This document shows, one piece after another, positions 2,360 through 54,791 of a stretch of 54,791 nt of DNA (position 1 is its first letter; every line of letters begins with the position of its first letter). The stretch covers positions 1 through 54,791 of the forward strand of contig JAKACX010000010.1 in NCBI GenBank assembly GCA_021821055.1, given 5' to 3'. This DNA comes from Bacillota bacterium. GTDB lineage: Bacteria; Bacillota; Bacilli; Alicyclobacillales; SLC66. Below the pieces are notes generated by a model. The model made no database searches and was not told where the DNA came from. It saw nothing but the letters and a program-made list of their open reading frames with translations. Position numbers and translations under genes: made by a program.

Positions 2360-2365
2360 CCTCAC

Positions 2366-3100
2366 TCACCCCCTATGGACAAACGCCTGCAGCAGCTCAT
2401 AGTCCCCGAGCAAGAGGACCGTCACAGCAACGATGTAGCCCCGCTGGCGCTCCAGCGTCTTGCGGCTCACCGCCACCCTGGACTGCAACTGTTTGAGCGG
2501 CAGACTGCGCGACTTGAGGAACAATTGTCGCAGTTCCGCGTCCGAAGCGATCAGACGGGCCACTTCAATCGCATGCTCGCGCGCGTCCGCGTGTTTCGGC
2601 GACACCTCCACGAGCTCCAGAAACGACAGTCCAAATCGCTCCAGTTCCTGCGAGTACAATGCGATCTCCTGCGCCCGCGCGGTCGCCTCTTCGTCCTCCG
2701 AGTACGCGCGCACGGCGGTGGCATTCTCCACGGCATTCTGGATGTTGCCCTCGCCGTCCTCTTCGTCGAACGTCGTGAACGGCACTTCCCGCACGCGCAC
2801 CCCGCGGAAGGAATCGATCAAGCGCCTGCGCATGACCGTCTCCGCAAATCCGACAAAACTGCCGCGACCGGCCTGATAGGCGTCGATCGCTTCATTCATG
2901 GCCATGAGCGCAATCTGGAATTCATCGTCCGTCCGGGTCACGGGCCTCCGGCACGTGTCGCGCGCAACGCGCTCCACAAACGGGAAGTAATCCCGCAGAA
3001 GCTGCTCGCGCGCGTCTCCGTTTCCTTCCCGGGCTTGCGCGAGCAATGTTTCCAGCGTATCCGACGCAGCAGTAAGCTTGCGGCGAAAGGACAGTCGCAT
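2366..3100 (-). CDS. sigI: RNA polymerase sigma factor SigI
   Basis: SigI is an alternative sigma-70-family factor that in Bacillus responds to heat and envelope stress and in clostridia to polysaccharides. The protein has a region-2-like segment (LLRDYFPFVERVARDTCRR, then DDEFQIALMAMNEAIDAYQAGRGSF at about residues 60-85) and the SigI-specific C-terminal part with KTLERQRGYIVAVTVLL instead of a normal region 4. The chosen ATG at 3100 gives 244 aa, close to the family's usual ~250; an upstream ATG at 3148 is in frame but adds 16 residues without support and has no ribosome site. Its stop codon touches the start of rsgI, the usual sigI-rsgI arrangement. SigI operons are commonly autoregulated, but I could not define a promoter here with confidence. 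Confidence 0.9.
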   Translation of the reverse strand: MRLSFRRKLTAASDTLETLLAQAREGNGDAREQLLRDYFPFVERVARDTCRRPVTRTDDEFQIALMAMNEAIDAYQAGRGSFVGFAETVMRRRLIDSFRGVRVREVPFTTFDEEDGEGNIQNAVENATAVRAYSEDEEATARAQEIALYSQELERFGLSFLELVEVSPKHADAREHAIEVARLIASDAELRQLFLKSRSLPLKQLQSRVAVSRKTLERQRGYIVAVTVLLLGDYELLQAFVHRG

Positions 3101-3217
3101 AACTCGCGCAACCCACCCTTCTACAGAGATTCGTTGCCAGTCAAGCATTTATGACGCAGAATCCGGCACGCACGTGAAAATACCATCCGACTTCCCACCG
3201 ACCCGTCCGCCTTCATC

Positions 3218-39086: not shown

Positions 39087-40286
39087 TCACGCGTCCGCAA
39101 ACGCCGCCTCCCTTGCGTCCAGTTCGCGCGCTCCGCCGCCGACGCCGCTCTTGTAAAACGTCGCGCAATGCCCGACGGCGCGCTCGTACGCCGCCTGCAC
39201 CTGCGCCGTAAAATCCGCCATCGCCGCACTGTCCACCACGGCGACGGCGCATCCGCCAAAACCCGCGCCCGTCATACGCGCCCCAAGGCACCCCGGCGCC
39301 CGCTGCATGGCGTCGACCAGCGCGTCGAGCTGCGGTCCCGTCACCTCGTAGTCACGGCGCAACGAATCGTGCGAAGCGTTCAACAGACTGCCGAACTGTT
39401 CCATCCGCCCGGCGCGCAAAGCCTCCACCGCGTCGGCGACCCGCGCGTTCTCCGTGATGACGTGTCGCGCCCGCCGCCGCAACGATGGCTCGTCCACCAC
39501 AGCCTGCAGCTTGTCCCACTGCGCAACGGACAATTGAGCCAGTTGCCGCACATCGGGGCGGACGGCCCGCAGCCTTGCAAGCGCCTGTTCGCACTCGGCG
39601 CGCCGCTCGTTGTACCGGGAATCCGCCAGTTCCCGGCGCACATTGGTGTTCACGACAACCAGGCGCCTCTCCCCCAAGTCCAGCGGCACGTATTCGCCGA
39701 CAAGCGTCGCTGTGTCAAGCAGCATGGCGAACCCCGCGCGCCCCATGCCCACCGCGTACTGATCCATGATCCCTGAGCGGACGCCGACGAATTCGTTCTC
39801 CGCCCGCTGGCAGGCGAGGACCAGGTCGAGCGGCGCCAGTCCGGCGCCCGACAACGCATTGACGGCGACGGCGGTCGCCAGTTGCACCGACGCGGAGCTT
39901 GACAGCCCCGCGCCGTCCGGGAGGTCGCCGGCAAAGAGAAAATCCGCCCCGGCAAAGCCCACGCCGCGCTCGCGCAGGGCCCACAGGACACCCTTTGGAT
40001 AATTTGCGAACCCGTCGGCCGCGTCAAAGCGCAGACCAGAGACCGGCGCCGTGGGCCGGCCGGGAAACCCCGTCGAGGCAAACCGCGCCAGTCCGTCCGC
40101 GCGCGGCCGCACAAGCAGGTAATTGCCCAGTGTGAGCGCGGCGGGAAATACGCGGCCGCCGTTGTAGTCGATGTGCTCGCCGATGATATTGACCCGTCCA
40201 GGCGCAAAAAACAGCCTCACATCGTTCGCCGGACCCGGCGAAAAGGCCAGAAACTCGCGCCACGCGCCCGCAACCAACCCCCTCAT
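39087..40286 (-). CDS. galK: Galactokinase
   Basis: GHMP-family kinase, phosphorylating galactose at C1. The galactokinase signature GRVNIIGEHIDYNGGRVFP, the ATP loop GAGLSSSASVQLATAVAV, and the C-terminal MTGAGFGGCAVAVV are present. The ATG at 40286 has a perfect AGGAGG 9 nt upstream; the 8-codon extension is rejected. Length is 399 aa. It follows galT on the same strand, with an inverted repeat of unknown role in the 99-bp gap. Confidence 0.96.
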   Translation of the reverse strand: MRGLVAGAWREFLAFSPGPANDVRLFFAPGRVNIIGEHIDYNGGRVFPAALTLGNYLLVRPRADGLARFASTGFPGRPTAPVSGLRFDAADGFANYPKGVLWALRERGVGFAGADFLFAGDLPDGAGLSSSASVQLATAVAVNALSGAGLAPLDLVLACQRAENEFVGVRSGIMDQYAVGMGRAGFAMLLDTATLVGEYVPLDLGERRLVVVNTNVRRELADSRYNERRAECEQALARLRAVRPDVRQLAQLSVAQWDKLQAVVDEPSLRRRARHVITENARVADAVEALRAGRMEQFGSLLNASHDSLRRDYEVTGPQLDALVDAMQRAPGCLGARMTGAGFGGCAVAVVDSAAMADFTAQVQAAYERAVGHCATFYKSGVGGGARELDAREAAFADA

Positions 40287-40303
40287 TGCGCACAACCTCC
40301 TTT

Positions 40304-40352
40304 GGGACATGTGACAAATTCCTTGCCTTGATTTCGATTATCACATGTCTCC
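40304..40352. repeat. Imperfect inverted repeat between galT and galK
   Basis: The left arm GGGACATGTGACAAA (40304-40318) pairs with a right arm at 40337-40352 containing TTATCACATGTCT. It shares the GGACATGTGA core with the outer arms of the 120-bp palindrome at 12112-12231. A third GGGACATGT starts at 40356. It ends just before the galK ribosome site. Confidence 0.7.
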
Positions 40353-40385: not shown

Positions 40386-41357
40386 TCAGCCGCGCAACCC
40401 GGAAGCGGCGATCGCGGCCCGCAGCACGGCGGCCGTATCCTCGACGGCGGCCGTGTTGCACGGCGCCCAGGCTCCCGTCTCCGAAGACGCGAGAAACTTG
40501 AGACGCTCGCGGTCCCGCAGTGGTGGATAGAACTCAATATGGAAATGATAGTAGGGTTCCGCGTCCGGCCCGTTCACAGGGCGCTGGTGCAGCGCCATCA
40601 TATAGGGAAAATCACGGGCGTACAGGCTGTCCATCCCGGCCGTAAGATCGCGCAGCGTCTTGGCCAGATCGTCCCGTTGCACGCCGGTCAGATCGGTCAC
40701 TGCCGTGAGATGCCGCTTGCTTGTGATGAAGGCGCCAAACGGGTAGTCCGTGAAAAACGGCAGGAACGCCATGAAATGCTCCGTCTCAAACAGCATGCGC
40801 CGACCAAACGCGCGTTCTTCGCGATTCATGTCGCAGATCAGGCAGCGCCCGGTCTGGGCGTGGTGTTCCGCGCACGCCTCAAGTTCCATGCGAACCTTTT
40901 GCGGCACGTACGGGTAAGCGTATATCTGCCCGTGAGGATGGGGCATCGTGACCCCGACTTCCGGACCGCGGTTTTCAAAGATAAAAACGTAGCGATGCCG
41001 CGGATCGGCAGCCAGCTCCGCGAAGCGTTCCGCCCACAGATCCACGACTTTTCGGACCTGTCCCACAGACAGGCGCGGCAACGCGGCCGTGTGGTCGGGC
41101 GAATAGAGAATGACCTCGCACTTGCCAACCGCCGGCGCCGTGCGATACGGGCCGCCCGCGACGGCGTCCGGTTCGGGCGCGGATGGCGACAGAGCGGGGA
41201 AGTCATTGTCGTACGCCAGCACGTCGTACTGTTCCGGCACTCGGCCTGAACCAGGGCAGAACGGACAGTCTCCGACGGGCAGGTGAGGGCGGGCCTGGCG
41301 GTTTGACGCCACCATGGTCCAGTCCCGCAACAGTGGATTATAGCGCAATTCGGCCAA
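40386..41357 (-). CDS. galT: Galactose-1-phosphate uridylyltransferase
   Basis: Transfers UMP between glucose and galactose 1-phosphates (Leloir pathway). It has ELRYNPLLRDWTMVASNRQ, CPFCPGSGRVP (zinc Cys pair), the active-site HPHGQIYAYPYVP (nucleophilic His), and the second half with FPYMMALHQRP and YHFHIEFYPPLRDR. This is the HIT-fold GalT class 1. The TTG at 41357 is chosen because GAGGTG lies 5 nt upstream; the ATG at 41372 has no ribosome site. Length is 323 aa. galE is not in this window. Confidence 0.93.
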   Translation of the reverse strand: MAELRYNPLLRDWTMVASNRQARPHLPVGDCPFCPGSGRVPEQYDVLAYDNDFPALSPSAPEPDAVAGGPYRTAPAVGKCEVILYSPDHTAALPRLSVGQVRKVVDLWAERFAELAADPRHRYVFIFENRGPEVGVTMPHPHGQIYAYPYVPQKVRMELEACAEHHAQTGRCLICDMNREERAFGRRMLFETEHFMAFLPFFTDYPFGAFITSKRHLTAVTDLTGVQRDDLAKTLRDLTAGMDSLYARDFPYMMALHQRPVNGPDAEPYYHFHIEFYPPLRDRERLKFLASSETGAWAPCNTAAVEDTAAVLRAAIAASGLRG

Positions 41358-41418
41358 AGGGACACCTCGCATCGCATGGAGTCAACCGTCAATCGTGAAC
41401 GGGGGAGCGATCCCTGCC

Positions 41419-41608: not shown

Positions 41609-44600
41609 TTGTCAAGCTTGGCTGATACCATACCGGGAAAGGCACTGCGCGAAGCGCTGGCAAGCCCCGCGACGTGGAGCACCGCCGCCAAACAGGGTGT
41701 CGGCACCGCCTTTTTCGACGGTGCGGGGACGAGCCTGTCCAACGTATGGTACACCCTCGCCGACGGCGTGTTGACCGAAGTCTACTACCCCACCATCGCC
41801 TGCGCCAACCTGCGCCGTCTGGAGTTCGCCGTCACCGATCGGGAGAGCTTCTTTGACCGCGAGAGCACGGATACCGTGCACGAAATCAATCTGCCCCACC
41901 CTGACGCCCTGGTCTACAGGCAGGTCAACAGGGCAAAAAACGGCTGCTACACCATCAGCAAGACCTTCATCACGGATCCTGTACGCCACGCCGTGCTGGT
42001 GAACGTGACGCTGCGAACGCTGATCGGCAATCTGGAAGACTACGAGTGGTACATGCTGGTGCATCCCGCCGCAGGCAATTCGGCGCTCGGCAATCGCGGC
42101 CGCGCGACACACCACGGCGAGGGCACCTGGTTGACCGCCCAGGGAGGCGACGTGGCGCTGGCCGTCGGCTGCACAATTCCCGTCGTCGCGCGCAGTTTCG
42201 CCGAAGCGCCGGACGCCCGCCGCTTCGAAGAGGCCTTTCTCGAAGCCAATCCGGATGCGCGCTCACAGAGTCCGTCGGCCGGGCGACAGGCGCACGACCA
42301 CCTACCGCCGGTGCGCGTTCAGGCGGCGCGCCTGCTCCTCGGGAGCGCCGCGCAGGGCAAGGAAGTCCAGTTCACGCTGACGGTGGCATTCGCCGACAAC
42401 GAACAGACCGCTCTGGAGACGGGCGCAGCCGCGCTTGCCGCTCCGTTTCGCGCAGCGCTCGCACAGTACCGCGAGGAGTGGCGCGCGTATGCCGGCGCGT
42501 TGCGGCGCCCCATCATCGGCGAACAGAGGCGCCACCAGGCCTCGGCCATGATTCTCAAGGCGCACGAGGACAAGCTGTTTCCCGGCGCTGCGGCGGCGTC
42601 ACTGTCCATTCCCTGGGGCGATTCCAAGTCAGCGGGCGATCCCCTGACAGGCGGCTATCACTTGATCTGGCCGCGTGATCTGTACCACATCGCATCGGCG
42701 CTCGCCATCGCGGGCGATCCATCGCTGGCGCTGCGCTCCCTGCGCTACCTGCAAAACACACTGCAGCGCCCTGACGGCTCGCTGGCGCAAAACACCTGGC
42801 CGAGCGGCGAAGCGTACTGGCACGGCATTCAGTTGGACCAGACAGCATTCCCCATCCTGCTCGCCGAACTCGTCGGCGCAGGCGCGGAATTCTGGCCGTT
42901 GGTCCGTGGCGCCGCGGACTTTCTGGTCGCTTACGGACCGTACAGCCCGCAGGAGCGCTGGGAGGAAAACGCCGGCTACTCCCCATCCACCCTGGCCGCC
43001 ATCATCGCCGGCCTGGCCGTCGCCGGCAACATTGCGCGCAACGTGGGCGAGCCCGGGTGCGCCGCATTGTACCTTGCGACGGCGGACCGGTACGCGCGGC
43101 ACGTCGAACGGTGGACCGCCGTCACCCGCGGGCCGCTGTCCGACCGCCCTTACTACATTCGGGTCAGCGATACGCCGGACCCGGACGACGGACACTGGAT
43201 CGAGCTGAAAAACGGCGGCGGCTGGCATCCAAAGGCGGAGATTGTCGACGGCGGGTTTCTCGAACTGGTCCGCCTCGGCGTGAAGGCGGCCGACAATCCC
43301 GTGATCATAAACTCGCTCGACGTGATCGACCGCCATCTGTTGTATGAGGGAAAAGGCGGGCCGGCGTGGTACCGCTACAACCACGACGGGTACGGCGAGT
43401 ACGCCGACGGCGCGCCGTACGACGGCCGAGGCGTTGGCCATCCGTGGCCACTTCTGGCAGGTGAGCGCGGAGAGTACGAGATCGCCCTGGCGAAGCTTGA
43501 CGCAAGGGCGCGGCCTGCCCGCTTCTTCGGACCGCTGCGCCTGTTGCGCGCGATGTGCGGCGATGAGGCGGGCGGCTGGCTGATCGCCGAACAGATCTGG
43601 GACGGACGGCCCATCGTCGGCCGTTCGCTGCGGCCCGGGCGGGGGACGGGATCTGCGACGCCGCTCGCTTGGGCCCTGGCGCAGTACATCCGGCTCGCCG
43701 AAGCGATTCGCAGAGGAGACAACCCGGAAACGCCGCAGGTCGTGCTGGCGCGCTATATCACAAACCCGCCGCCGCAGGGCCCGCCCCTGCAGATCGAACC
43801 GTCTGCCGGCGACTGGATCACCACGCGCGACGGGTTCATCACGCTGCGCGGGGTCACCGCGCCGGACGCCACCGTCGTGCTCGCGTCGCGCGGACGGTAC
43901 ACGTGGACGCGGGCGGACCGGCACGGCGTGTTTTGCGCCACGGGCCGACTGCCGATGGCGGGGCCAAACGACGTTTTGGTCATCGCGTACGACGGACTGC
44001 GCTCCGTGACTGAGCGAACCGTTCCAGCGCACTACCGTCCGCCCGTGCGCTTCTCCAGCCCAAACGTCAACCCCCTGTCGCGCGGTTACGGGCTGTTCGA
44101 ATATCCGAAACACCCGGATTTCAAACCCGGTGATTTTGCCCTGACGCACACGTCCATCGGCACCGACGGCGAGTGGGTCTACCTGTCGATCGGACTCGGT
44201 CACCTTGACAATCCCTGGGGCGGACCGACCGGCCTGTCCAAGCAGATCATCGACGTCTATCTGTCGCGTCCCGGAACCAAGCACGCCGGCCAGGACTGGA
44301 CGATGGGCCTGCGGGCGCGCTTCCGGCCGGGGGACACGTGGCACCGGCTCATCCGGGTCACCGGGAACTGGCACGGCGAAGCCGGCGTGTACGACAGCGA
44401 CTGGACATACCTCGACAGTGTCGTCGTGGCGCCGCAGTACGCGGAAAACACGGTTCACGTGGCCGTCTCGGCGGCGGCCCTGGGCGGTGTGCCGTCCACC
44501 GGATGGGGATTCATGGTGGTCGTCGCCGGAGAAGCTGGCGGCGCCCCGCGTTCCGTCCGCCGCCAGGCCGACGAGTGGACATTTGGCGGGGCGCCAGACA

Positions 44601-44713
44601 CCGAGCAGGCGCCGCTCCTGCTCGACTATCTCGTGACGCCGGAATTGCTGAACACGGCGCTGGAACTGGCGCGCGACAAGGAATTCCTGCTTCCCATGGT
44701 GCGGCTGCCGTAA
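41609..44713 (+). CDS. GH15 glucodextranase/glucoamylase-like enzyme with C-terminal glucodextranase domain, no signal peptide
   Basis: Exo-acting alpha-glucosidase of family GH15. The N-terminal ~270 residues form the supersandwich domain (GTAFFDGAGTSLSNVWYTLADGVLTEVYYP). The (alpha/alpha)6 barrel follows, with HLIWPRDLYHIASALAIAGD near 354, a candidate general acid in ERWEENAGYSPSTLAAI near 452, and a candidate general base in LLAGERGEYEIALAKL near 619-622. From about 740 a beta domain and a glucodextranase C-type domain (WVYLSIGLGHLDNPWGGPTG, VYDSDWTYLDSVVVAPQ) complete 1034 aa. Such C domains usually bind the cell surface or carbohydrate in secreted enzymes, but no signal peptide or TM helix is visible here. 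The TTG start follows AGGGGTGA at 6 nt. Substrate is inferred to be alpha-1,4/1,6-glucan. Confidence 0.88.
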   Translation: MSSLADTIPGKALREALASPATWSTAAKQGVGTAFFDGAGTSLSNVWYTLADGVLTEVYYPTIACANLRRLEFAVTDRESFFDRESTDTVHEINLPHPDALVYRQVNRAKNGCYTISKTFITDPVRHAVLVNVTLRTLIGNLEDYEWYMLVHPAAGNSALGNRGRATHHGEGTWLTAQGGDVALAVGCTIPVVARSFAEAPDARRFEEAFLEANPDARSQSPSAGRQAHDHLPPVRVQAARLLLGSAAQGKEVQFTLTVAFADNEQTALETGAAALAAPFRAALAQYREEWRAYAGALRRPIIGEQRRHQASAMILKAHEDKLFPGAAAASLSIPWGDSKSAGDPLTGGYHLIWPRDLYHIASALAIAGDPSLALRSLRYLQNTLQRPDGSLAQNTWPSGEAYWHGIQLDQTAFPILLAELVGAGAEFWPLVRGAADFLVAYGPYSPQERWEENAGYSPSTLAAIIAGLAVAGNIARNVGEPGCAALYLATADRYARHVERWTAVTRGPLSDRPYYIRVSDTPDPDDGHWIELKNGGGWHPKAEIVDGGFLELVRLGVKAADNPVIINSLDVIDRHLLYEGKGGPAWYRYNHDGYGEYADGAPYDGRGVGHPWPLLAGERGEYEIALAKLDARARPARFFGPLRLLRAMCGDEAGGWLIAEQIWDGRPIVGRSLRPGRGTGSATPLAWALAQYIRLAEAIRRGDNPETPQVVLARYITNPPPQGPPLQIEPSAGDWITTRDGFITLRGVTAPDATVVLASRGRYTWTRADRHGVFCATGRLPMAGPNDVLVIAYDGLRSVTERTVPAHYRPPVRFSSPNVNPLSRGYGLFEYPKHPDFKPGDFALTHTSIGTDGEWVYLSIGLGHLDNPWGGPTGLSKQIIDVYLSRPGTKHAGQDWTMGLRARFRPGDTWHRLIRVTGNWHGEAGVYDSDWTYLDSVVVAPQYAENTVHVAVSAAALGGVPSTGWGFMVVVAGEAGGAPRSVRRQADEWTFGGAPDTEQAPLLLDYLVTPELLNTALELARDKEFLLPMVRLP

Positions 44714-44739
44714 GTGCGCACCGGACAACCCCGGCCATG

Positions 44740-44766
44740 GGCAGGGTGCGCGACAAGCACCCTGCC
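44740..44766 (+). terminator. Hairpin terminator after the GH15 gene
   Basis: Perfect 10-bp stem GGCAGGGTGC/GCACCCTGCC with a 7-nt loop, 26 bp after the stop, followed by AATTTGCG. The U-run is short, so efficiency is uncertain. Confidence 0.65.
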
Positions 44767-45146
44767 AATTTGCGTGCTTTGAACCAAATTGTCTATCAAG
44801 CTCACGGGTTGGGGTAGTATACTGGAAGAAAGCCCTCCATGGCGCCAGCGCGGCATCCCGAGCAGGATGAAAGTGCGCTGCGTCACGGTCGCACGCCACA
44901 AGCCAGGGCTGGAATGAAGGCTTGCTCGGTCGCCCGCCTCCCTTTGCCCGTCTTGAGTTTCGCGACAGCGTTGTCGAGTGGGAGCAAAGAGATCCGGGCG
45001 GCGGGCGCACACCCGTCGGCTGGCGCAGACCTGTTTTCCGGGTGAACGCCGTCTCGTGTACTAGTCTGCGAGACGAATGAATAGACTCGGCATGAACGTC
45101 TTCCCCCGATCACCCGAAGAACATGAAATTTCGGGTTCATCAGGAA

Positions 45147-45209
45147 GCCGGTCATCCGGCAGCGCGGATCGCCCCGCATTCTCAAAGCGGATCATCCCGC
45201 ATTTTCAAA
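45147..45209. repeat. Three 14-bp GC-armed palindromes, two in a 23-bp tandem duplication
   Basis: GCCGGTCATCCGGC at 45147-45160, GCGGATCGCCCCGC at 45164-45177 and GCGGATCATCCCGC at 45187-45200. The last two begin a 23-bp unit repeated in tandem (45164-45186 and 45187-45209) with 20 identities. They lie 35-97 bp before the DUF4912 start codon, a position suited to an operator or mRNA-level control. Confidence 0.75.
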
Positions 45210-45243
45210 ATGGACACAGTTTCGCGACAGGACGGTGATCAAC

Positions 45244-45771
45244 ATGAATCCACACGGGCCATGGCGGCAGGAGCCGCGGGAAGACCGCCTCTTCGCAGCC
45301 GCGCGGGAACCGTCTGCCATATTCGTCTGCTGGCAAATCGGAGCGTCGCGAAGACGCCTGACGGAACAGCACTTCGGGCAGCCATGGGAACGACTGCCGC
45401 TGTTTTTGCAGGCCTACGACGTGACCGACATTGTGTTTGACGGCGACAACGCCCACTCCGTGCAGCGCACGGCCATCCCGTCCCACGCCGGAAACTGGTA
45501 TTTGACGGGACTCGCGGAGGGCCGGTCGTATATGGTGGATTATGGCCTGCTCACACCGGAAGGCCGCTTTTTCTGCCTCCTGCGCAGCGCCGCCGTGGCT
45601 ACGCCGCCGCGCATGCCGGAAGAGCTCTTCGCCCCGCGGGCGCGTTTCGTTCGGCTGCGTTCGGGAGCCCCGCCGCGCGCCGCCCGGGCGGCGGTCAGCG
45701 CCGACTTTCCGGAAACTCCCTACGAGCATGAGTTCGATGGTTACTCCGCTGTCGAGAGGCCGGTGATGTAA
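45244..45771 (+). CDS. DUF4912-domain protein
   Basis: 175 aa, cytoplasmic. The DUF4912 core is visible: IFVCWQIGASRRRLTEQHFG near the start, a central RLPLFLQAYDVTDIVFDGDNA, then IPSHAGNWYLTGLAEGRSYMVDYGLLTPEGRFFCLLRSAAVATPP, ending in a short variable tail. The Trp-x-x-(aromatic) and Y.V.YG pattern suggests a small beta domain, perhaps glycan-related, but no activity is known. The ATG at 45244 follows GGTGA at 5 nt; the GTG at 45235 is an alternative. It ends 3 bp before the GH57-GT4 gene, so it belongs to that operon, which is the only functional clue. Confidence 0.82.
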   Translation: MNPHGPWRQEPREDRLFAAAREPSAIFVCWQIGASRRRLTEQHFGQPWERLPLFLQAYDVTDIVFDGDNAHSVQRTAIPSHAGNWYLTGLAEGRSYMVDYGLLTPEGRFFCLLRSAAVATPPRMPEELFAPRARFVRLRSGAPPRAARAAVSADFPETPYEHEFDGYSAVERPVM

Positions 45772-45774
45772 TCC

Positions 45775-48603
45775 ATGCACGCGACCGGCAGCCTCTCGTT
45801 TGTGTTGCATGCGCATCTGCCTTACATCCGTCATAGAGAGACCGACCACGCGCTCGAAGAGCGCTGGCTGTACGAGACCATCACCGAGAGTTACATTCCC
45901 CTGCTCGAGAGTTTCCTCCGCCTCGAAAAGGACCGCGTTCCCTTCACGGTGACCGTGTCGCTCTCGCCGACGCTCGTCGCGATGCTCGCGGACGCGGACC
46001 TCCAGGACCGCTTCGCGCGCCACATCGGGCGCCTGATCGAGTTGACGGACAGGGAACTGGAACGGACGGCGCGCGACCCCGCGACCCATCACGTCGCCGT
46101 GTACCACGCCGCCCGCTTGCGCCGCGTTCAGGAATTCTTCCTGTCCCGGTCGGGAAATCTGCTCGGGGCGTTTGCGGATCTCGGCAAAAGCGGGCGCCTC
46201 GAATTGATCACCTGTTCCGCGACTCACGCGTTTATTCCCCTATTGCACACAAAAGAAGCCATGCGCGCGCAGATCATGACCGCCGTCCTCGCGCACGAGC
46301 GCGTGTTTGGCGCACCGCCGCGCGGTTTCTGGCTGCCCGAGTGCGGATATGTTCCGGCGGTCGACGAGGTGCTCGACGAGGCTGGCGTCGAGTACTTTTT
46401 CATCAGCAGGCACGGGCTGCAGTCCGCCGACCCCGTTCCCGTGTTCGGCGACCTGTCGCCCGTGCTCACACCGCGCGGCGTCGCCGCCTTTGCGGGCGAC
46501 TCGGAAGCCGCCAGGCAGGTGTGGAGTTCCAAGGAAGGCTATCCCGGAGACCCCGAATACCTCGAGTACTACCGCGACGTGGGCTTCGACCTGCCGCTCG
46601 ATTACGTGCGGCCTTACATCCATCCGGAAGGCATCCGTATCAATACAGGGATCAAGTATCACCGCGTCACCGGCGCCGGAGACCACAAGGAACTGTACAG
46701 CCCCGAGCGGGCGGGCGGGCGCGCCGCCGCGCACGCGGCCCACTTCCTGGCCGCGCGCAGGGAGCAGTTGCGGCGCGGCGCCGCGGCCATCGGCCGCCAA
46801 CCGGTGACTGTCGCCGCATTTGACGCGGAACTGTTCGGACACTGGTGGCACGAGGGACCGCTCTGGCTGGAAAACGTACTGCGCAAGGCGGCGGAGGACG
46901 CGGTTCGGGTCTCGTCCCCCGGCCAGTACCTGGAACTGTACGACGAGTGGCAGTCCTGCGACCTGGCGATGTCGTCCTGGGGTCGCGACGGCTATGCGCA
47001 GGTCTGGGTGAATGAGCGCAACGACTGGATCTACCCGCAACTGCACACAGCGGAATTGCGCATGCGTGAACTTGCCGGCAAAACGGCGGGGCCCGACACC
47101 GCCCCCGCGGTCCGCCGGGCCGGCCGCCAGGCCATGCGCGAGTTATTGCTGGCGCAGGCGAGCGACTGGGCGTTCATGATGGACAACGGTACGACGGTCG
47201 AGTACGCCAGGCGCAGAACGGCCGCTCACCTCGAACACTTCACGCGCCTGTACGACATGATCCGCGACGGCGCCGTCGAAGCCGCTTACGTCCGGCGCCG
47301 CGAACAGGAAACACCGCTGTTTGCCGCCGTGGATCCGGGACTCTACCTCGATCCTGAAGCCGCCTGGCGCCGTTCGGCGGCACTGCGCGCAAACGATGCC
47401 GGTCAGCCGGACGGGCTGCGCATCGTCATGCTGTCCTGGGAATTCCCGCCGCTGACCGTCGGCGGATTGTCCCGGCATGTGTACGATCTGACGCGCCGGC
47501 TGGCCGACCTGAACTGCGAGGTGCACGTGATCACCGTGAGCACTCAGGACGCGCCCGCACACGAGGTCGTCCAGGGAGTGCACGTCCACCGCGTGACGGT
47601 GCGCAGGCCGGATGGCGGAGAATTCATCCATTGGACGCTCGCGCTCAATATGGCCATGGTCGACGCCTGCCGCAAACTGGTGGAAGAAGACGGACTCGCC
47701 TTCGACCTGATCCACGCGCACGACTGGCTCGTCGGCTACGCGGCGAGTGAACTGGGACGCCTGTACGGCCTGCCCTTGGCCACGACGATCCACGCGACGG
47801 AGCACGGGCGCAACGACGGCATCCACACCGATCTTCAGCGGCGCATCAGCGACATCGAATGGCGCCTGACGTATGACGCCCGCGAGGTGATCGTCTGCAG
47901 CACCTACATGAAGCGCGAGGTGGAGGATGTGTTCACGCTTCCGCCGGAGAAGGTCAGCGTGCTGCCAAACGGCGTCGATCCCGCCGCCCTGCAGGTTGCG
48001 GGCGCCCCCGGCCGACGCCCGGCCGGCGAAGAGCGGATCGTCGTTTTCCTCGGGCGCCTCGTGCGGGAAAAGGGCGTCCAGACGTTGATCGAGGCGACTC
48101 CGGCCATACTCGCCGGCCAGCCGGATGCGCGCATCGTGATCATTGGCAAGGGGCCCATGCAAAACGACCTTCAGCGTCAGGCGCAGGTCACCGGCGTGGA
48201 GCACCGCGTGCACTTCGCCGGCTTCGTGACGGACGACGAGCGCAATGAATGGCTGCACCGCGCCTCCGTGGCCGTCTTTCCGAGCCTCTATGAGCCGTTT
48301 GGCATCGTTGCGCTTGAGGCGATGGCTGCCGGAGTGCCCGTTGTCGTGTCCGATGTGGGCGGCCTTGCGGACGTCGTCGAGCACGGCCGCACCGGCTACC
48401 GGATGATTCCGGGCGACGCGCGGTCACTCGCGACATTCGTCGTCAAACTGCTCGGCGACGCGGAGCACGCCGGCGTGCTGGCGCAGGCCGCCCGACAGGA
48501 CGTGGAGCGGTTTGACTGGACGCGCATTGCCCGGGAAACGATTGATGTCTATCGCAGATGCATCGCCGCAGCCATTCGGGAGACGGGGGGCGTTCCACAA
48601 TGA
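45775..48603 (+). CDS. GH57 branching-enzyme-like domain fused to GT4 glucan-synthase-like domain
   Basis: Single 942-aa polypeptide with two enzymes. Residues 1 to ~530 form a GH57/DUF1957-type glucan branching enzyme: FVLHAHLPYIRH at the start, the likely nucleophile Glu189 in GFWLPECGYVPAVDEVL, the likely acid/base Asp350 in AAFDAELFGHWWHEGPLWLE, and a helical C-part with NDWIYPQLHTAELRM. From Leu548 a GT4 glycosyltransferase begins: SWEFPPLTVGGLSRHVYDL, HAHDWLVGY, LPNGVDP, VVFLGRLVREKGVQTLIEA and the donor-binding Glu840/Glu848 in PSLYEPFGIVALEAMAAG. The two parts could extend and branch the same alpha-glucan, as glycogen synthase and branching enzyme do. It ends in an ATGA overlap with the next gene. 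Domain assignments are firm; donor and product are inference. Confidence 0.9.
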   Translation: MHATGSLSFVLHAHLPYIRHRETDHALEERWLYETITESYIPLLESFLRLEKDRVPFTVTVSLSPTLVAMLADADLQDRFARHIGRLIELTDRELERTARDPATHHVAVYHAARLRRVQEFFLSRSGNLLGAFADLGKSGRLELITCSATHAFIPLLHTKEAMRAQIMTAVLAHERVFGAPPRGFWLPECGYVPAVDEVLDEAGVEYFFISRHGLQSADPVPVFGDLSPVLTPRGVAAFAGDSEAARQVWSSKEGYPGDPEYLEYYRDVGFDLPLDYVRPYIHPEGIRINTGIKYHRVTGAGDHKELYSPERAGGRAAAHAAHFLAARREQLRRGAAAIGRQPVTVAAFDAELFGHWWHEGPLWLENVLRKAAEDAVRVSSPGQYLELYDEWQSCDLAMSSWGRDGYAQVWVNERNDWIYPQLHTAELRMRELAGKTAGPDTAPAVRRAGRQAMRELLLAQASDWAFMMDNGTTVEYARRRTAAHLEHFTRLYDMIRDGAVEAAYVRRREQETPLFAAVDPGLYLDPEAAWRRSAALRANDAGQPDGLRIVMLSWEFPPLTVGGLSRHVYDLTRRLADLNCEVHVITVSTQDAPAHEVVQGVHVHRVTVRRPDGGEFIHWTLALNMAMVDACRKLVEEDGLAFDLIHAHDWLVGYAASELGRLYGLPLATTIHATEHGRNDGIHTDLQRRISDIEWRLTYDAREVIVCSTYMKREVEDVFTLPPEKVSVLPNGVDPAALQVAGAPGRRPAGEERIVVFLGRLVREKGVQTLIEATPAILAGQPDARIVIIGKGPMQNDLQRQAQVTGVEHRVHFAGFVTDDERNEWLHRASVAVFPSLYEPFGIVALEAMAAGVPVVVSDVGGLADVVEHGRTGYRMIPGDARSLATFVVKLLGDAEHAGVLAQAARQDVERFDWTRIARETIDVYRRCIAAAIRETGGVPQ

Positions 48604-50999
48604 AAGCAGTCATCATGGCCGGCGGAAGAGGCACACGTCTGCGTCCGCTGACGTGCTACGCGCCAAAGCCGATGGTTCCTCTGCTGGACCGGCCCTGCAT
48701 GGAGTACATCATCGAGCTGCTGAAGAAACACTCCTTTACGGACATTGCCGTCACTGTGCAGTACCTGCCGCAGGTCCTGCAAAACCATTTTGGCGATGGA
48801 CACGAATGGGGCGTGAATCTGCAGTTCTTCGAGGAATCGGTGCCACTTGGCACGGCGGGCAGCGTCAAGAACGCGGAACGCTTTCTTGACGAGACGTTCC
48901 TTGTGATCAGCGGCGACGGCCTGACTGATTTTGACCTCGGCGCCGTCATGGACTTTCACCGCAGGCGGGGGGCCAAGGCGACGGTTGTCCTCACGAAAGT
49001 CGACGTCCCGCTCGAGTACGGCGTCGTCATGACCAGCGAAGACGGAAAGATCGTGCGTTTCCTCGAGAAGCCGAGTTGGAGCGAAGTGTTCAGCGACACC
49101 GTCAACACGGGCATCTACGTGCTGGAACCGGATGTGCTGCAACTGTTCGCGGCGGACGCCGAGTTTGACTTCAGCAAGGACCTCTTTCCGCGCCTGCTTG
49201 CCCTGCAATGGCCCCTGTACGGCTACGTGGCGGACGGTTACTGGTCGGACATCGGCAATCTCGCGCAGTACCGGCAGACGCAGTTCGACATGCTCATGGG
49301 CCTGGTCGACGTGCGCATTACCGGCAGCGAACAGGCGCCGCGCGTGTGGATCGGCGAGGATGTCCAGGTCGCGCCCGGAGCGCGTATCCAGGGGCCGTCG
49401 TTTATCGGCTCCGGGTCGGCCGTGTCGGCGGACGCCGAGATCGGGCCGTACGCCGTCATCGGACGCAACAACCAGATCGACGGCAGGGTGTCTGTCGAGC
49501 GCACCGTATTGTGGAACGGAAACTACATCGGCGCCTCGACAACGCTGACGGGCGCCACCATCTGTGACAATTGCCAGATCGGGAAGGGCGTGGACGTCTA
49601 TGAAGGCGCGGTGATCGGCGACAAGAGCCGAATCGGAGAATTTGCGGCGATTCGCCCAGGCGTGAAAATCTGGCCGGAGAAGACCATCGGCCAGGGAACG
49701 ATCCAGCAGACCTCGCTCATCTGGGGACACTCCGTCTTTCACAGCCTGTTCGACGAGGACGGCATCAGCGGCCTGCCGAACATCGAACTCATTCCGGAAT
49801 TGGCGGGTCGAATAGCGGCGTCGTACGCTTCAAACCTGCGCAAGGGCTCCACGGTGTCGGTCAGTTGCGACGAATACCCGTATTGCAGCATCCTCAAGTT
49901 TTCCGTCATCTCCAGCCTGCTTGCCGCGGGCGTCCAGGTGCGGGACATCGGCGTCATGCCCGTTCCGGTGGTGCGCTACGAAATCCGCCGTTCGAACAGC
50001 GTCGGGGGCATCCACATCCGCAGCGCGGAAGACGGGGAGGACAAACCGATCGTCATCCAGTTCTTCGACGCGGAGGGACTGCCCATCGAAAAGGCGACCG
50101 AGCGCAAGATCGAGAACGCATTTTTGCAGGAGGACTTCTCCCGGCCTGATCCGCGCAGCATCGGAAGCCTCGAACAGGGAACGCAGATCGCCGACCTGTA
50201 CATCTACGAGGTGCTGTCGCGCATCCGCACGGAAGCCATCGTCCGGCGCCGCTTCAAGGTTGTGTTCTGCTGCGAGAGCCAGCCCGTCCTGTCGATCATG
50301 CAACCGATTCTCGAACAGCTCGGATGCGCGGTGACGACGGTGTCCACCAGCGGGTCAAACATAGGAGAGACGGTCGTGGCCGAGGGTGCGGACATCGGCA
50401 TCAAGCTCGACACAAGCGGACAGAAGTTCCTCTTTTACACCGAGCGCGGCTACTGCCTGACGCGCAACGAAGTGATGATTCTGCAGATGTTGATCGCAGT
50501 CAAGGAGAACACCCCCATGGCCGTGCCGGTCACGGCCCCGTCCGTGATCGAGGAGATGGGCGGCCAGACGGGAATTCCCGTCGTGCGCACCAAGACGCTG
50601 ATTCGCTCCATTCTTGAAGTGGGTCGCGACAATCCGCTGCAGGTGCACTACGACGGTTTTTATTCCGTCGTGTCGCTGTTTCAGTTTCTTGCGGAAGAGA
50701 ACATGTCCCTGCACACGCTGATCGACCAGTTGCCGCGGTTCCACATGCGGGCGGAGACGGTGCCGTGCCCGCCGCGCGCAAAGGGGCGCGTGATGCGCAT
50801 GCTGATGGAGGAAATGAAGGGCCAGGAGCTCGAATTGATCGACGGAATCAAGGTGCTGTCGGACGACGGGTGGGCCTTGATCATGCCGGACGCGGAGAAG
50901 GCGATGTTCAAGATCGTCGCGCAGGGAAATTCGCATGCGGATGTCGATCAGATCATCGACCTGTACAAGTCCAGAATCGCGCATTACCGGATGGCCTGA
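48600..50999 (+). CDS. Sugar-1-phosphate nucleotidyltransferase fused to a degenerate phosphomannomutase-like domain
   Basis: 799 aa. Residues 1-230 form the nucleotidyltransferase: MKAVIMAGGRGTRLRPLT, APKPMVPLLDRPCMEYII, GDGLTDFDL, EKPSW and GYWSDIGNLAQY. A left-handed beta-helix (about 250-370; IGSGSAVSADAEIGPYAVIG) follows, then a phosphohexomutase-like region (about 380-799). In this last part the usual DGDGDR metal loop is replaced by LDTSGQKF (Asp604 region) and no TASHNP serine loop is seen; the matching place reads GGIHIRSAEDGEDK. The mutase is therefore probably inactive or altered. The ATG overlaps the previous stop. The nucleotidyltransferase could make the activated sugar for the GT4 partner; GDP-mannose synthesis is the family's annotated alternative. 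Confidence 0.85.
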   Translation: MKAVIMAGGRGTRLRPLTCYAPKPMVPLLDRPCMEYIIELLKKHSFTDIAVTVQYLPQVLQNHFGDGHEWGVNLQFFEESVPLGTAGSVKNAERFLDETFLVISGDGLTDFDLGAVMDFHRRRGAKATVVLTKVDVPLEYGVVMTSEDGKIVRFLEKPSWSEVFSDTVNTGIYVLEPDVLQLFAADAEFDFSKDLFPRLLALQWPLYGYVADGYWSDIGNLAQYRQTQFDMLMGLVDVRITGSEQAPRVWIGEDVQVAPGARIQGPSFIGSGSAVSADAEIGPYAVIGRNNQIDGRVSVERTVLWNGNYIGASTTLTGATICDNCQIGKGVDVYEGAVIGDKSRIGEFAAIRPGVKIWPEKTIGQGTIQQTSLIWGHSVFHSLFDEDGISGLPNIELIPELAGRIAASYASNLRKGSTVSVSCDEYPYCSILKFSVISSLLAAGVQVRDIGVMPVPVVRYEIRRSNSVGGIHIRSAEDGEDKPIVIQFFDAEGLPIEKATERKIENAFLQEDFSRPDPRSIGSLEQGTQIADLYIYEVLSRIRTEAIVRRRFKVVFCCESQPVLSIMQPILEQLGCAVTTVSTSGSNIGETVVAEGADIGIKLDTSGQKFLFYTERGYCLTRNEVMILQMLIAVKENTPMAVPVTAPSVIEEMGGQTGIPVVRTKTLIRSILEVGRDNPLQVHYDGFYSVVSLFQFLAEENMSLHTLIDQLPRFHMRAETVPCPPRAKGRVMRMLMEEMKGQELELIDGIKVLSDDGWALIMPDAEKAMFKIVAQGNSHADVDQIIDLYKSRIAHYRMA

Positions 51000-51113: not shown

Positions 51114-52499
51114 TCAGGCCTTCTTCGCCAGCGAGGAGAGCAGGCTGGCCGGAGGCAGAACGGGTGTGTTGCTGTACGTGTATGTTGTGGCCACTGTCTC
51201 TTGGATCACGATGCCCTGAATCTCCTTCATGACGCGCTGTACGGTGGGACTCTGCGGAGCGCCCTGACCGGCGAGCAGCTTGGACGGCAGGACGAATCGC
51301 ACGTTGATGGTGTCGCCCGTGACGACATCCTGGCCCTGGACGCTGGCCGTATTGATCGCGATGGAGGATTTCGCCGTCTTCATGATGGCCTGATTCACGG
51401 TTGCCATTGCGGAAGTGGGGATCTGCATCGCCGTGGACACCTGCGAGGCAAATACGGTGAGGCCCGTGGTGCTCAGCGCTCCGCGGTAGACGCTCCCCGA
51501 TCCCGTCTGCGCGACACTGACGCCCGTCAGGCCGTCGGTTGAAAGGTAGTTGCCCGCCTGCAAATCCTGCTGGATGAGCGACAGAATGCCCTGGCCGCCG
51601 GGAAACGCCTGCCATCCGGTGCCCTGATTGATATAGACGGCGTCCCCGTTGATGTACTCCTGCATTTTCACGTTCGATGACTGTCCCGCCTGCGAGACCG
51701 TCCCGCCGATCTGCTCCATGACGGACGACAGTCCGTCCCAGCGGCCGCGCTGCACGACAAACAGCATCTTCGACGCGAGTTGCAACTGGCGGGCGATGGC
51801 CTGCGCCTGGAAGTCCTTCTTCCCGGACGGCGTCAGAATCAGTGCGCGCGACACGTTCATCTGCACGTGCTCCTGGGTGAAAACAGACTGGTTGCTGCGG
51901 ACCATCGCGCCAATCAGGCTGTTCGCGTCCTGATTGGATACCTTCCATCCGGCCGGGGTCGGCTGGATCCCAACGTGATACCCCTTGAGACGTTGCAGAA
52001 AGCCCAGTTCGTTGCCAAGGGTCAGGGCGTTTGCGTTCTGCACGCCAGCAAACAACCCGAGACTGTTCGCCCATGCCGTCGGTGTCTCCTGGCTCTTGAG
52101 CGGCACGTGAAAGTACTGCACCGCCATCGCAGCGGCCTCCGCCTCGCTGACAGGAGCGTTCGCGCCGAAGGTGGAGTTTGACACGGGCGCAACGATTCCC
52201 AGGTCAAGCGCCTGGTGCACCCAGCCCCACGCCCAGGACTTCGTCGGCACGTCCGTGAACGGCGAATGCTGCGCCGGATTCGGGCGCGCTCCGAGCACGA
52301 AGAGGAAATTATAGATAAAGTCGGCCTTGGGTTCGACATACGGTGAACCCGACGCGGTCGCGGCGTTCGCCAGGACTGGTACGCCCAGCGTGAGCAGGAT
52401 AGAACTTGCGGCGGCGATTCGCGCGGTTCTCCCGAATATGCGGCTGCGGAAACGCCGCCGTCCGTCCGTACCGCGATCGTGGAACGAAGGCAAGGTCAT
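51114..52499 (-). CDS. Secreted SLH-domain protein
   Basis: 461 aa. A signal peptide is plain (FGRTARIAAASSILLTLGVPVLANA, cleavage near residue 40). It is followed by one recognisable S-layer homology motif (FTDVPTKSWAWGWVHQALDLGIVAPVSNSTFGANAPVSEAEAAAMAVQYF), which may extend to a second, weaker one. The C-terminal half (MQEYINGDAVYINQGTGWQAFPGG) resembles lipoprotein/DUF6612-like beta sheets, but I cannot name the family. Attachment to secondary cell-wall polymer through SLH is expected, although a single clear SLH is fewer than the usual three. The ATG at 52499 follows AGGAGA at 9 nt. Confidence 0.75.
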   Translation of the reverse strand: MTLPSFHDRGTDGRRRFRSRIFGRTARIAAASSILLTLGVPVLANAATASGSPYVEPKADFIYNFLFVLGARPNPAQHSPFTDVPTKSWAWGWVHQALDLGIVAPVSNSTFGANAPVSEAEAAAMAVQYFHVPLKSQETPTAWANSLGLFAGVQNANALTLGNELGFLQRLKGYHVGIQPTPAGWKVSNQDANSLIGAMVRSNQSVFTQEHVQMNVSRALILTPSGKKDFQAQAIARQLQLASKMLFVVQRGRWDGLSSVMEQIGGTVSQAGQSSNVKMQEYINGDAVYINQGTGWQAFPGGQGILSLIQQDLQAGNYLSTDGLTGVSVAQTGSGSVYRGALSTTGLTVFASQVSTAMQIPTSAMATVNQAIMKTAKSSIAINTASVQGQDVVTGDTINVRFVLPSKLLAGQGAPQSPTVQRVMKEIQGIVIQETVATTYTYSNTPVLPPASLLSSLAKKA

Positions 52500-52639
52500 C
52501 GTCTCATCTCTCCTATACACTAAATGCGCCAATATACGGCGCGCCATCCATCCCGTCAGCCCTCAGCAGTCTACCATTCTCTTACTGTCATAGCAAGAGG
52601 AACTGAAGAGAGTCCGCCCGACCGTCGGATGTCCCGGCG

Positions 52640-54370
52640 TCACGCCTGACCCGTCCGTGCGAGCGGCAACCGGACGACAACCTGCGTCCCCTTTCCGAGA
52701 TCACTCTGAATGGCCATCGATCCGCGGTGATTTTGGATAATGTTGTAGCTCACCATCAGTCCAAGCCCCGTTCCGCGTTCCTTTGTCGTATAGAACGGCT
52801 CTCCCAGGTGGGGGAGCCGTTCGGGTTCGATGCCTCCCCCCGTGTCAATGACCCGCACCACGAGCCACTTCTGCTGTTCCACGACCATCTCGATACGGGC
52901 CTCTCCGCCGTGCGGCATCGCTTCGATCGCGTTTTTCAGGATATTGACAAACACCTGGCGGATCTGCCCCTCCTCACAGTACACCGGGGGCGGAATCGCC
53001 GGACAGGAGACTTCCAGGCGCACATGCGACATGACCGCCTGCGGTTCCATGAGATTGACCACATACGCGAGCAGGTTGTGCATGTCGACCAGCCTGTAAG
53101 TGAACGCCTGCGGTTTGGCAAGCAACAGGAACTCCTCGACAATCGATTCGATGTCCACAATCTCCGCTGCCATGATCTCAAAGTAGTGCCGCTGCGCGTC
53201 GCTGCTCCCCTGCTGCAGCAGTTGCAGGAAGCCCTTGAGCGCTGTCAGGGGGTTGCGGACTTCGTGCGCAACCCCCGCGGCGAGTTGGCCCACCACGGCG
53301 AGCTTGTCCGACTTGCGCAGGAGTTCCTGCGCCTGCTTGCGCTCCGTGATGCTGCGGGCGACCGCGGTCACCATGGTGTTGCAGTCGTCGGACGCCACCG
53401 GCGACAGACTGACTTCGGCCTGCAGCCACTCGTCGGATTCCTCCCGGTCTGCGCAACGCACCTCAAACGGCGCAGGACAACGCGTCCCGATCGCCTCTTG
53501 CAGCGCCTCCTGGAACATCGGACGGTCCGCCTCGTGGATGAATTGCCCAAGCGGACGGCCCATGCACTTGGCGCCCAGCCTGCTGAAGGCGGTGCGGTTT
53601 GACGGGGAGGCGTACTTGACCACGCCGGAGGAGTCCAGCAGGAGGATGAGGTCCGACGTGTTTTCCGCGATCAGGCGGTACTTGCGCTCTGCTTCACGGC
53701 GCTGCTCGTCAGATCGCGCGTAGGCCTCCGAGAGCAGAATGAGGGCGCCGAGAATCACGGCCAGGTACAGCGTTTCCAGCGCGAGGCCGGCAACCGTGCT
53801 GTGGGCCAGCAGGCGGACCAGGATCGCAGAAAACACCGGGATGGCGACCAGGACGATGCGGACATGCCGCCACAGGTCTGCCAGAGCGTAGGATAGTCCG
53901 AGAGATTTCTGGATGCCCGCGAGCGCCAGCGCGTTTATCATGTCGAAGGCGGCCACACTGCACAGGATGGAGAACACGTTGTGCGGAAGCCAGTCGCGGA
54001 CAAGGCTGGCGGCGAGAATGCTGAAGGCATACATGCCGCAGGTGGCGACAATGCGATAGATGCGCGGACGTTGGTGATGGCGCAGATAGTAAAGGAATCC
54101 CGCCGCGACCGCGGACAGGGAGGTCACGATGATCGCATCGCTGTAACCGAAGCGGACGAGAATGAAGAAAAAACCGATCTCGCCCGGACTGTACGTCGCT
54201 CCATCCGGAAGTTTGATCGGGAACAGGCTGAACACCACCGAGGCGACAAGCACCACGCCGATGTACGGCCAGTGCTGGGGGCGATGGTACAATGTATTGG
54301 CCGTTTCATACAGTGCAAAAAGTCCAAGCGCAAAAAAGAGAGCGGTGAAGCCGTTGATGTCGCGCGTCAT
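52640..54370 (-). CDS. KinB-like membrane sensor histidine kinase with PAS domain
   Basis: 576 aa. About seven membrane helices occupy residues 8-225 (FTALFFALGLFALYE, IGFFFILVRFGYSDAIIV and others). A PAS domain spans about 231-345 (AENTSDLILLLDSSGVVKYASPSN), and the HisKA H-box GVAHEVRNPLTALKGFLQLL puts the phospho-accepting His at 369. The HATPase part has NILKNAIEAMPHGG (N box), VIDTGGGIEPERLPHLGEPFYTTKERGTGLGLMV (G1/F/G2). Layout and H-box match sporulation kinases such as KinB/KinE; the PAS domain may sense metabolism. No response regulator is adjacent, consistent with feeding a phosphorelay. The ATG at 54370 has TGAGG at 9 nt. Confidence 0.85.
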   Translation of the reverse strand: MTRDINGFTALFFALGLFALYETANTLYHRPQHWPYIGVVLVASVVFSLFPIKLPDGATYSPGEIGFFFILVRFGYSDAIIVTSLSAVAAGFLYYLRHHQRPRIYRIVATCGMYAFSILAASLVRDWLPHNVFSILCSVAAFDMINALALAGIQKSLGLSYALADLWRHVRIVLVAIPVFSAILVRLLAHSTVAGLALETLYLAVILGALILLSEAYARSDEQRREAERKYRLIAENTSDLILLLDSSGVVKYASPSNRTAFSRLGAKCMGRPLGQFIHEADRPMFQEALQEAIGTRCPAPFEVRCADREESDEWLQAEVSLSPVASDDCNTMVTAVARSITERKQAQELLRKSDKLAVVGQLAAGVAHEVRNPLTALKGFLQLLQQGSSDAQRHYFEIMAAEIVDIESIVEEFLLLAKPQAFTYRLVDMHNLLAYVVNLMEPQAVMSHVRLEVSCPAIPPPVYCEEGQIRQVFVNILKNAIEAMPHGGEARIEMVVEQQKWLVVRVIDTGGGIEPERLPHLGEPFYTTKERGTGLGLMVSYNIIQNHRGSMAIQSDLGKGTQVVVRLPLARTGQA

Positions 54371-54381
54371 GCATGTGAACC

Positions 54382-54791
54382 TCACTTGGCGGAACTTGCG
54401 TACAAAAACCGCACCAACCCGGACCCGACCAGAAGATCGCCTGGACTGAGCACGAAATGCGGGAAGGGAATCCAGTCGCCCAGCCACCAGAGAATGGACG
54501 GGTTCATGAACTGATGGCGCGAGCTTCCCGCAAACGCCTTCACGGATGCCGACAGTCCGGCCAGCCGCATGGCTGTGGGCGAAACTGGCATGAGTCCGCC
54601 GTGGACCAGGAGCGCCAGAAAGTTCGCCAAAGCGCCCCCCAAAATCAGCGGCAAGCCGGGCAAGCGGCGGTTTGCCCAGAGACCGTACAAAACGAAAATG
54701 AAGGACAGCTCCAATAGTATGGGTTCGTTCTTCCAGCCAAAATCAGCGCCGATAGCCAGCAGCAACTGGCCGGCAAAGCCCGTGAGCAGAA
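54382..54791 (-). CDS. DUF5317-family membrane protein (5' end beyond the window)
   Basis: Partial: the frame is open to the window edge. The visible 136 residues contain LELSFIFVLYGLWANRR, LPLILGGALANFLALLVHGGLMPVSPTAM and FVLSPGDLLVGSGLVRFLY, the pattern of the DUF5317 family, which is often next to sporulation kinases and HD-domain proteins in Bacillales. Its role is unknown. It ends 11 bp before the KinB-like kinase start, so they are likely cotranscribed. Confidence 0.75.
   Translation of the reverse strand, partial: LLTGFAGQLLLAIGADFGWKNEPILLELSFIFVLYGLWANRRLPGLPLILGGALANFLALLVHGGLMPVSPTAMRLAGLSASVKAFAGSSRHQFMNPSILWWLGDWIPFPHFVLSPGDLLVGSGLVRFLYASSAK

Follow-up and report, generated by a model that had tools for sequence, protein, structure and literature searches.

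A DUF4912-associated GH57–GT4 fusion locus of Bacillota as a candidate operon for glycogen-like storage

Classical bacterial glycogen metabolism relies on GlgC, GlgA, GlgB and GlgP, which respectively supply a nucleotide sugar, elongate, branch and mobilise the polymer. A 2024 review noted that GT4 genes found among glycogen genes where GT3 and GT5 synthases are missing may encode uncharacterised glycogen synthases, a question raised for archaea (PMC11046441). Here we ask whether a gene set of a Bacillota bacterium (Alicyclobacillales; SLC66; assembly GCA_021821055.1, contig JAKACX010000010.1, positions 1-54,791; this whole stretch of 54,791 nucleotides is the window) makes and mobilises such a polymer by other means. 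An earlier note on the window had proposed that a GH15 hydrolase, a DUF4912 protein, a synthase/branching fusion and a sugar nucleotidyltransferase form a non-canonical, glycogen-like route. We conclude that the locus is probably an operon for the synthesis and mobilisation of a cytoplasmic α-1,4/1,6-glucan that dispenses with GlgC, GlgA, GlgB and GlgE. What we observe are the identities of the domains, their catalytic motifs, the order of the genes, their co-occurrence and a gene fusion; the donor nucleotide, the polymer, the direction of flux and the function of DUF4912 are inferred.

A recurring gene set in genomes without GlgC, GlgA and GlgE

The four genes lie on the forward strand, with the open reading frames and domains that the earlier note described. 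A 1,034-residue GH15 exo-glucosidase (41609-44713), made up of Glucodextran_N, the GH15 catalytic domain and Glucodextran_C, is followed after 521 bp without a convincing gene (44714-45234) by the 178-residue DUF4912 protein (45235-45771; 93.9 bits to PF16258, cut-off 29.4). Only 3 bp separate the DUF4912 stop from the start of a 942-residue fusion protein (45775-48603). Its GH57 half (45775-47406), of AmyC type and with a BE_C domain, is assigned by domain match and catalytic motifs, and its GT4 half (47407-48603) is, by domain match, a retaining glucosyltransferase and putative glucan synthase. The ATG of the last gene, at 48600, overlaps the fusion stop as ATGA; its product (48600-50999) joins a sugar-1-phosphate nucleotidyltransferase to a left-handed β-helix and a phosphomutase-like half (domain at 49746-50972), the latter two parts being absent from the earlier description. 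The term ‘compact set’ used there fits the tightly packed DUF4912, fusion and nucleotidyltransferase genes, but not GH15, which is set off by the 521-bp gap; the corresponding spacing is about 100 bp in the relative L031. The gap may harbour a second promoter. Scans for sigma-70 promoters and terminators returned sites no more numerous than expected by chance, so we make no promoter claim. A crude hydropathy check found no hydrophobic N-terminal segment of signal-peptide type in the proteins of the set, in agreement with the proposal that none is exported.

Divergent from the set are galK (39087-40310) and galT (40386-41372), both on the reverse strand, which the earlier note had grouped with it. 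The arrangement is real but incidental: in the relatives’ loci, galK and galT are both consistently missing from the vicinity of the system, and we rejected the link for this reason. An RsgI-like anti-sigma factor is paired with a sigma factor elsewhere in the window (95-3148), and an SLH-domain protein (51114-52547) and a PAS histidine kinase (52640-54487) are encoded downstream of the set.

The fusion protein was matched in 28 of 41 genomes, namely the source genome (73.87% complete) and 40 relatives, 35 of the 41 being at least 90% complete; 27 matches are full-length and one covers GT4 only. In the neighbourhood survey suggested in the earlier note, the gene immediately upstream of the fusion encoded DUF4912 in 26 of 26 assessable loci of the relatives’ set (L055 with a weak match), and the core of DUF4912, GH57–GT4 and nucleotidyltransferase recurs among the relatives. 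In a second set of named loci, the fusion is carried by Alicyclobacillus fastidiosus, Brevibacillus, Paenibacillus, Fictibacillus, Moorella, Thermincola, Pelotomaculum and Heliophilum; a third type of GH15 protein (661 residues) or an α-glucan phosphorylase frequently accompanies it. Ten named loci, chiefly of Bacillota, have an unfused form in which DUF4912–GH57 faces GT4 and the nucleotidyltransferase/pseudo-mutase. At the Pelotomaculum-type loci L063 and L065 the fusion is present and DUF4912 undetected; a protein of about 150 residues occupies that position and may be a divergent form of the partner or a replacement for it. A scan of viral contigs with the fusion protein gave no match, and a mobile-element origin was dropped on this ground. 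The system singled out as the window’s best candidate for something undescribed is supported as a non-canonical route, but it is not particular to the window, because the fusion and DUF4912 are widespread.

No canonical glgA, glgB, glgC or glgP lies within the window, as had been noted, and family (profile) searches with curated cut-offs took the question to whole genomes, a check that the earlier note had called for. None of the 41 genomes holds a GlgC over the TIGR02091 cut-off, a GT5 GlgA over that of TIGR02095 or a GlgE over that of PF11896; the best TIGR02091 score in the source genome, 119 of 425 bits, belongs to the nucleotidyltransferase of the locus itself. Neither GT35 nor a CBM48 protein was found in the source genome at its 74% completeness, and the complete classical glg operon that the earlier note had named, with glucan loss on its deletion, as contrary evidence did not turn up. 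Across the 41 genomes, GT35 occurs in three (one genus, adjoining the fusion in at least two) and CBM48 in eight. A maltose-1-phosphate (GlgM/GlgE) route was rejected because GlgE is missing from all 41. In contrast to the classical pathway, then, the window has GT4 in place of GT5, GH57 in place of GH13 and GH15 in place of GT35, the GlgC, GlgA and GlgP families being absent by curated cut-offs, and the logic proposed for its gene set is the same.

Enzymes for making and degrading the glucan

The GH57 half is nearest to Thermotoga maritima AmyC (2b5d; 471 bits in a PDB sequence search), a branching enzyme by biochemistry, and fingerprints for GH57 branching enzymes have been described (PMC6616209). 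With AmyC, TK1436 and TT1467 it shares similarity over the full N-terminal half, the catalytic Glu and Asp, the Cys fingerprint and the gatekeeper Trp. Nucleophile E189, fingerprint residue C190 and acid/base D350 are invariant in 15 aligned homologues, in line with the branching-enzyme fingerprint; W402 and W411 (gatekeeper Trp), S463 and D464 are also invariant. The window protein differs from these enzymes in its fusion to GT4, in the DUF4912 gene upstream and in an active-site Arg (R237 in AmyC, R261 in TK1436), which is Gly241 here. Three sister genera (L031, L045 and L056) likewise have Gly, or else Ser, at this position, and Arg stands there in the 11 other relatives of the alignment and in all 58 further matches. 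By this alignment the replacement is a lineage-specific change, and it places the branching activity of the window protein in doubt.

The GT4 half is modelled as a retaining GT-B fold (model confidence 93.6), closest by fold to MshA, GlgM, BshA, sucrose-phosphate synthase and the Pyrococcus glycogen synthase; its best PDB sequence match is GlgM (6tvp, 116 bits). No curated family is reached over its cut-off, the best being TIGR02149 at 155 of 302 bits; the fold is GT4/GT5-like, yet by this test the protein falls outside the GlgM/GlgA_Coryne type that the model describes. With GlgM, sucrose-phosphate synthase and MshA all among its nearest solved relatives, likeness does not fix the acceptor or the donor. 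The pairing of GT4 with GH57 is shared with GlgM/GlgA_Coryne-type GT4 enzymes and with mycobacterial Rv3031/Rv3032; unlike these, the window has a single fused polypeptide, accompanied by DUF4912, the nucleotidyltransferase and GH15.

For the nucleotidyltransferase, the best PDB match is a UTP–glucose-1-phosphate uridylyltransferase (UDP-glucose pyrophosphorylase; 8x7s, 225 bits) and the best NCBIfam model is mannose-1-phosphate guanylyltransferase-like (259 of 440 bits). This likeness extends to nucleotidyltransferases of the CugP and mannose-1-phosphate types that have phosphomutase-like domains, 8x7s being the best match. The C-terminal half of the window protein aligns with phosphohexomutases from end to end, yet the TASHNP (catalytic Ser), DGDADR (metal site) and RASGTEP (phosphate loop) motifs are gone and it falls outside the active family, with RSAEDG and DTSGQK standing where TASHNP and DGDADR are expected. 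TASHNP is missing from 31 of 31 aligned homologues, which makes this half a conserved pseudoenzyme and sets the family apart from the CugP-type and mannose-1-phosphate-type fusions. An active mutase supplying glucose-1-phosphate was ruled out by the loss of the catalytic motifs. Some relatives (for example L039 and L046-L051) encode a nucleotidyltransferase of about 250 residues that lacks the pseudo-mutase half.

The large GH15 protein belongs to its family by domain score (103.9 bits, PF00723), reaches 627 bits against TIGR01535, under the cut-off of 742, and matches glucodextranase 1ug9 (532 bits) and glucoamylase 1lf6 (436 bits) in the PDB. Aligned with these two it retains the QERWEE and EQxWD catalytic motifs, and it shares with 1ug9 the order of N-terminal, GH15 and C-terminal modules. 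Characterised glucodextranase and glucoamylase relatives are extracellular. The window enzyme differs from 1ug9 and 1lf6 in having no visible signal peptide and in adjoining biosynthetic genes; its sequence and setting suggest that it is probably an intracellular mobilising enzyme. Full-length orthologues occur in six relatives, every one next to a GH57–GT4 gene.

Degradative neighbours of several kinds (large GH15, small GH15, the 661-residue GH15 or a GT35 phosphorylase) stand beside the fusion. Counted by locus, the large GH15 is found in seven, including the window, and a short GH15-like protein in nine; one genus has GT35 and a CBM48 protein, and some fusion loci have no degradative neighbour within the stretch examined. 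The fullest version of the system among the loci seen is the run of nucleotidyltransferase, CBM48 protein, GT35 phosphorylase, DUF4912 and GH57–GT4 at L039 and L040 (G001:C9 and G014:C143). Two further observations concern this part of the neighbourhood: spore germination genes of gerA/gerAC type lie directly 3′ of the small GH15 gene in L046-L048 (three genomes, one genus), and a stand-alone Glucodextran_C protein with a hydrophobic N-terminus is encoded near a DUF4912–GH57 pair at L141:1082-1954 (G157:C11).

DUF4912 as the partner of GH57

The earlier note had called DUF4912 an unknown partner, and the wider survey shows whose partner it is. Of 80 named loci drawn from over a dozen phyla, 76 could be judged, and in 68 of these DUF4912 lies next to GH57. 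Among 348 genomes of the phylum, with GH57 counted at E <= 1e-80, 164 have both genes, 3 DUF4912 alone, 13 GH57 alone and 168 neither (phi 0.91), a near one-to-one co-occurrence among genomes that are related rather than independent, so that a Fisher P value is not to be taken literally. The constant partner of DUF4912 is GH57, rather than GT4 or GH15.

A search of open-access journal literature found no paper on the function of DUF4912. No solved structure is similar to it by sequence, and no catalytic site was recognised in it. Its structure model, with confidence near 97 in the core, finds matches among fibronectin type III (FN3) domains, with an FN3-like β-sandwich predicted at residues ~17-128; DUF4912 is therefore probably non-catalytic. 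One genome encodes a 782-residue protein (L140:3836-6184; G339:C62) in which GlgA (GT5) is joined to a ComEA-like helix–hairpin–helix and DUF4912, followed in the operon by GH57 and GlgC; both GlgA and GlgC there exceed their curated cut-offs. A related genome has the same genes adjoining and unfused, and in several genomes of another order the DUF4912–GH57 module lies beside a bona fide GlgA. The GlgA and GlgC of the classical pathway thus adjoin the same module in other genomes, and because the module is coupled to either GlgC and GlgA or the nucleotidyltransferase and GT4, the latter pair appears to substitute for the former.

On the basis of the FN3-like fold, the GlgA fusion and the Glucodextran_B-like domains on some homologues, a glucan-binding scaffold is favoured over a regulator. 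The regulatory reading, in which DUF4912 would be mainly an FN3-like sensor of glucan or another ligand with nucleic-acid-binding domains, concerns this protein only and is compatible with storage; we consider it rather unlikely. It draws on weak N-terminal helix–turn–helix matches in two close relatives (L036:13138-14031 and L044:7448-8314) and on Rho_N domains over cut-off in homologues from other phyla (L104, L121 and L139), one of which also has Glucodextran_B over cut-off. However, such domains would not fit into the short window protein or into most of the DUF4912 proteins that adjoin the fusion, the sole clear fusion joins DUF4912 to GlgA and not to a regulator, and constant adjacency to and co-occurrence with GH57 suit a physical partner equally well.

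A probable storage route and its alternatives

In the storage route that we propose, the nucleotidyltransferase would activate glucose-1-phosphate, yielding NDP-glucose, and its inactive mutase half would have a regulatory or structural part. Within the fusion protein, GT4 would elongate α-1,4 chains and GH57 would branch them. Intracellular GH15 would release glucose, and in some loci GT35 would mobilise the polymer. DUF4912 would be an FN3-like accessory working with GH57, probably by binding glucan or by keeping the synthase/branching complex attached to the particle. The non-canonical GH57/GT4 route of the earlier note is supported by the absence of GlgC, GlgA and GlgE from 41 genomes, by the recurring α-glucan-degrading neighbours, by the co-occurrence of DUF4912 with GH57 and by the GlgA–DUF4912 fusion. 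We count against it the GT4 half that is under every cut-off, the ambiguous nucleotidyltransferase, the lost GH57 Arg, the 74% completeness of the genome and the Rv3032 precedent. A fuller claim can be framed for GlgC-, GlgA- and GlgE-independent bulk branched α-glucan, made by GT4 and GH57 in one polypeptide with a nucleotidyltransferase carrying a dead-mutase sensor and with DUF4912 as the scaffold and general partner of AmyC-type GH57 across bacteria; this we hold tentatively, at slightly short of even confidence.

The gene set might instead make a specialised oligosaccharide or lipopolysaccharide precursor, or another short α-glucan, rather than a bulk store. Mycobacterial GT4 Rv3032 and the putative GH57 branching enzyme Rv3031 are tied to (methylglucose) lipopolysaccharide synthesis (PMC4981310; PMC6629080), Rv3032 accounts for a small share of bulk glucan and its deletion barely alters that pool (PMC4981310), and AmyC-type GH57 enzymes have high hydrolytic activity that yields short branched products (PMC6616209). 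Given these precedents, the GH57 half may combine trimming with branching, and bulk glucan need not be the product of such a GT4. However, the annotated neighbour clusters include no glucosylglycerate synthase, methyltransferase or acyltransferase, and hold GH15, GT35 and a CBM48 protein instead; elsewhere, moreover, the DUF4912–GH57 module stands beside GlgA and glgC. We regard such a product as improbable. Still further from the evidence is a degradative maltodextrin set in which GH57 would be mainly an amylase, GH15 a glucosidase, and GT4 and the nucleotidyltransferase would serve an unrelated glycoconjugate. GH15 is purely degradative, AmyC was first reported as an α-amylase, with hydrolysis making up at most 30% of its activity (PMC6616209), and the window lineage has lost the active-site Arg. 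Yet GT4 is covalently joined to GH57, usually with the nucleotidyltransferase at hand, and a nucleotide-sugar fusion is ill-suited to pure degradation; the fingerprint residue Cys190 is invariant, and the annotated clusters that recur beside the fusion genes include no recognisable sugar importer. This makes a purely degradative role very improbable, and storage remains our preferred reading.

Bacterial α-glucan storage is known as a general kind, and what the locus adds is a partner, DUF4912, that is uncharacterised and surprisingly general. As an almost obligatory companion of the GH57 branching enzymes across many phyla, once fused to a glycogen synthase, DUF4912 acquires a concrete, testable role. 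The situation raised for archaea, with GT4 among glycogen genes, has a comparable form in a large bacterial group; there GT4 is fused to the branching enzyme, so the question can be tested with a single recombinant protein. Our literature search returned nothing usable on storage glucan in carriers such as Moorella, Desulfotomaculum and Pelotomaculum. Inventories of storage polymers that are based on glgA and glgC alone would class such organisms as glycogen-free.
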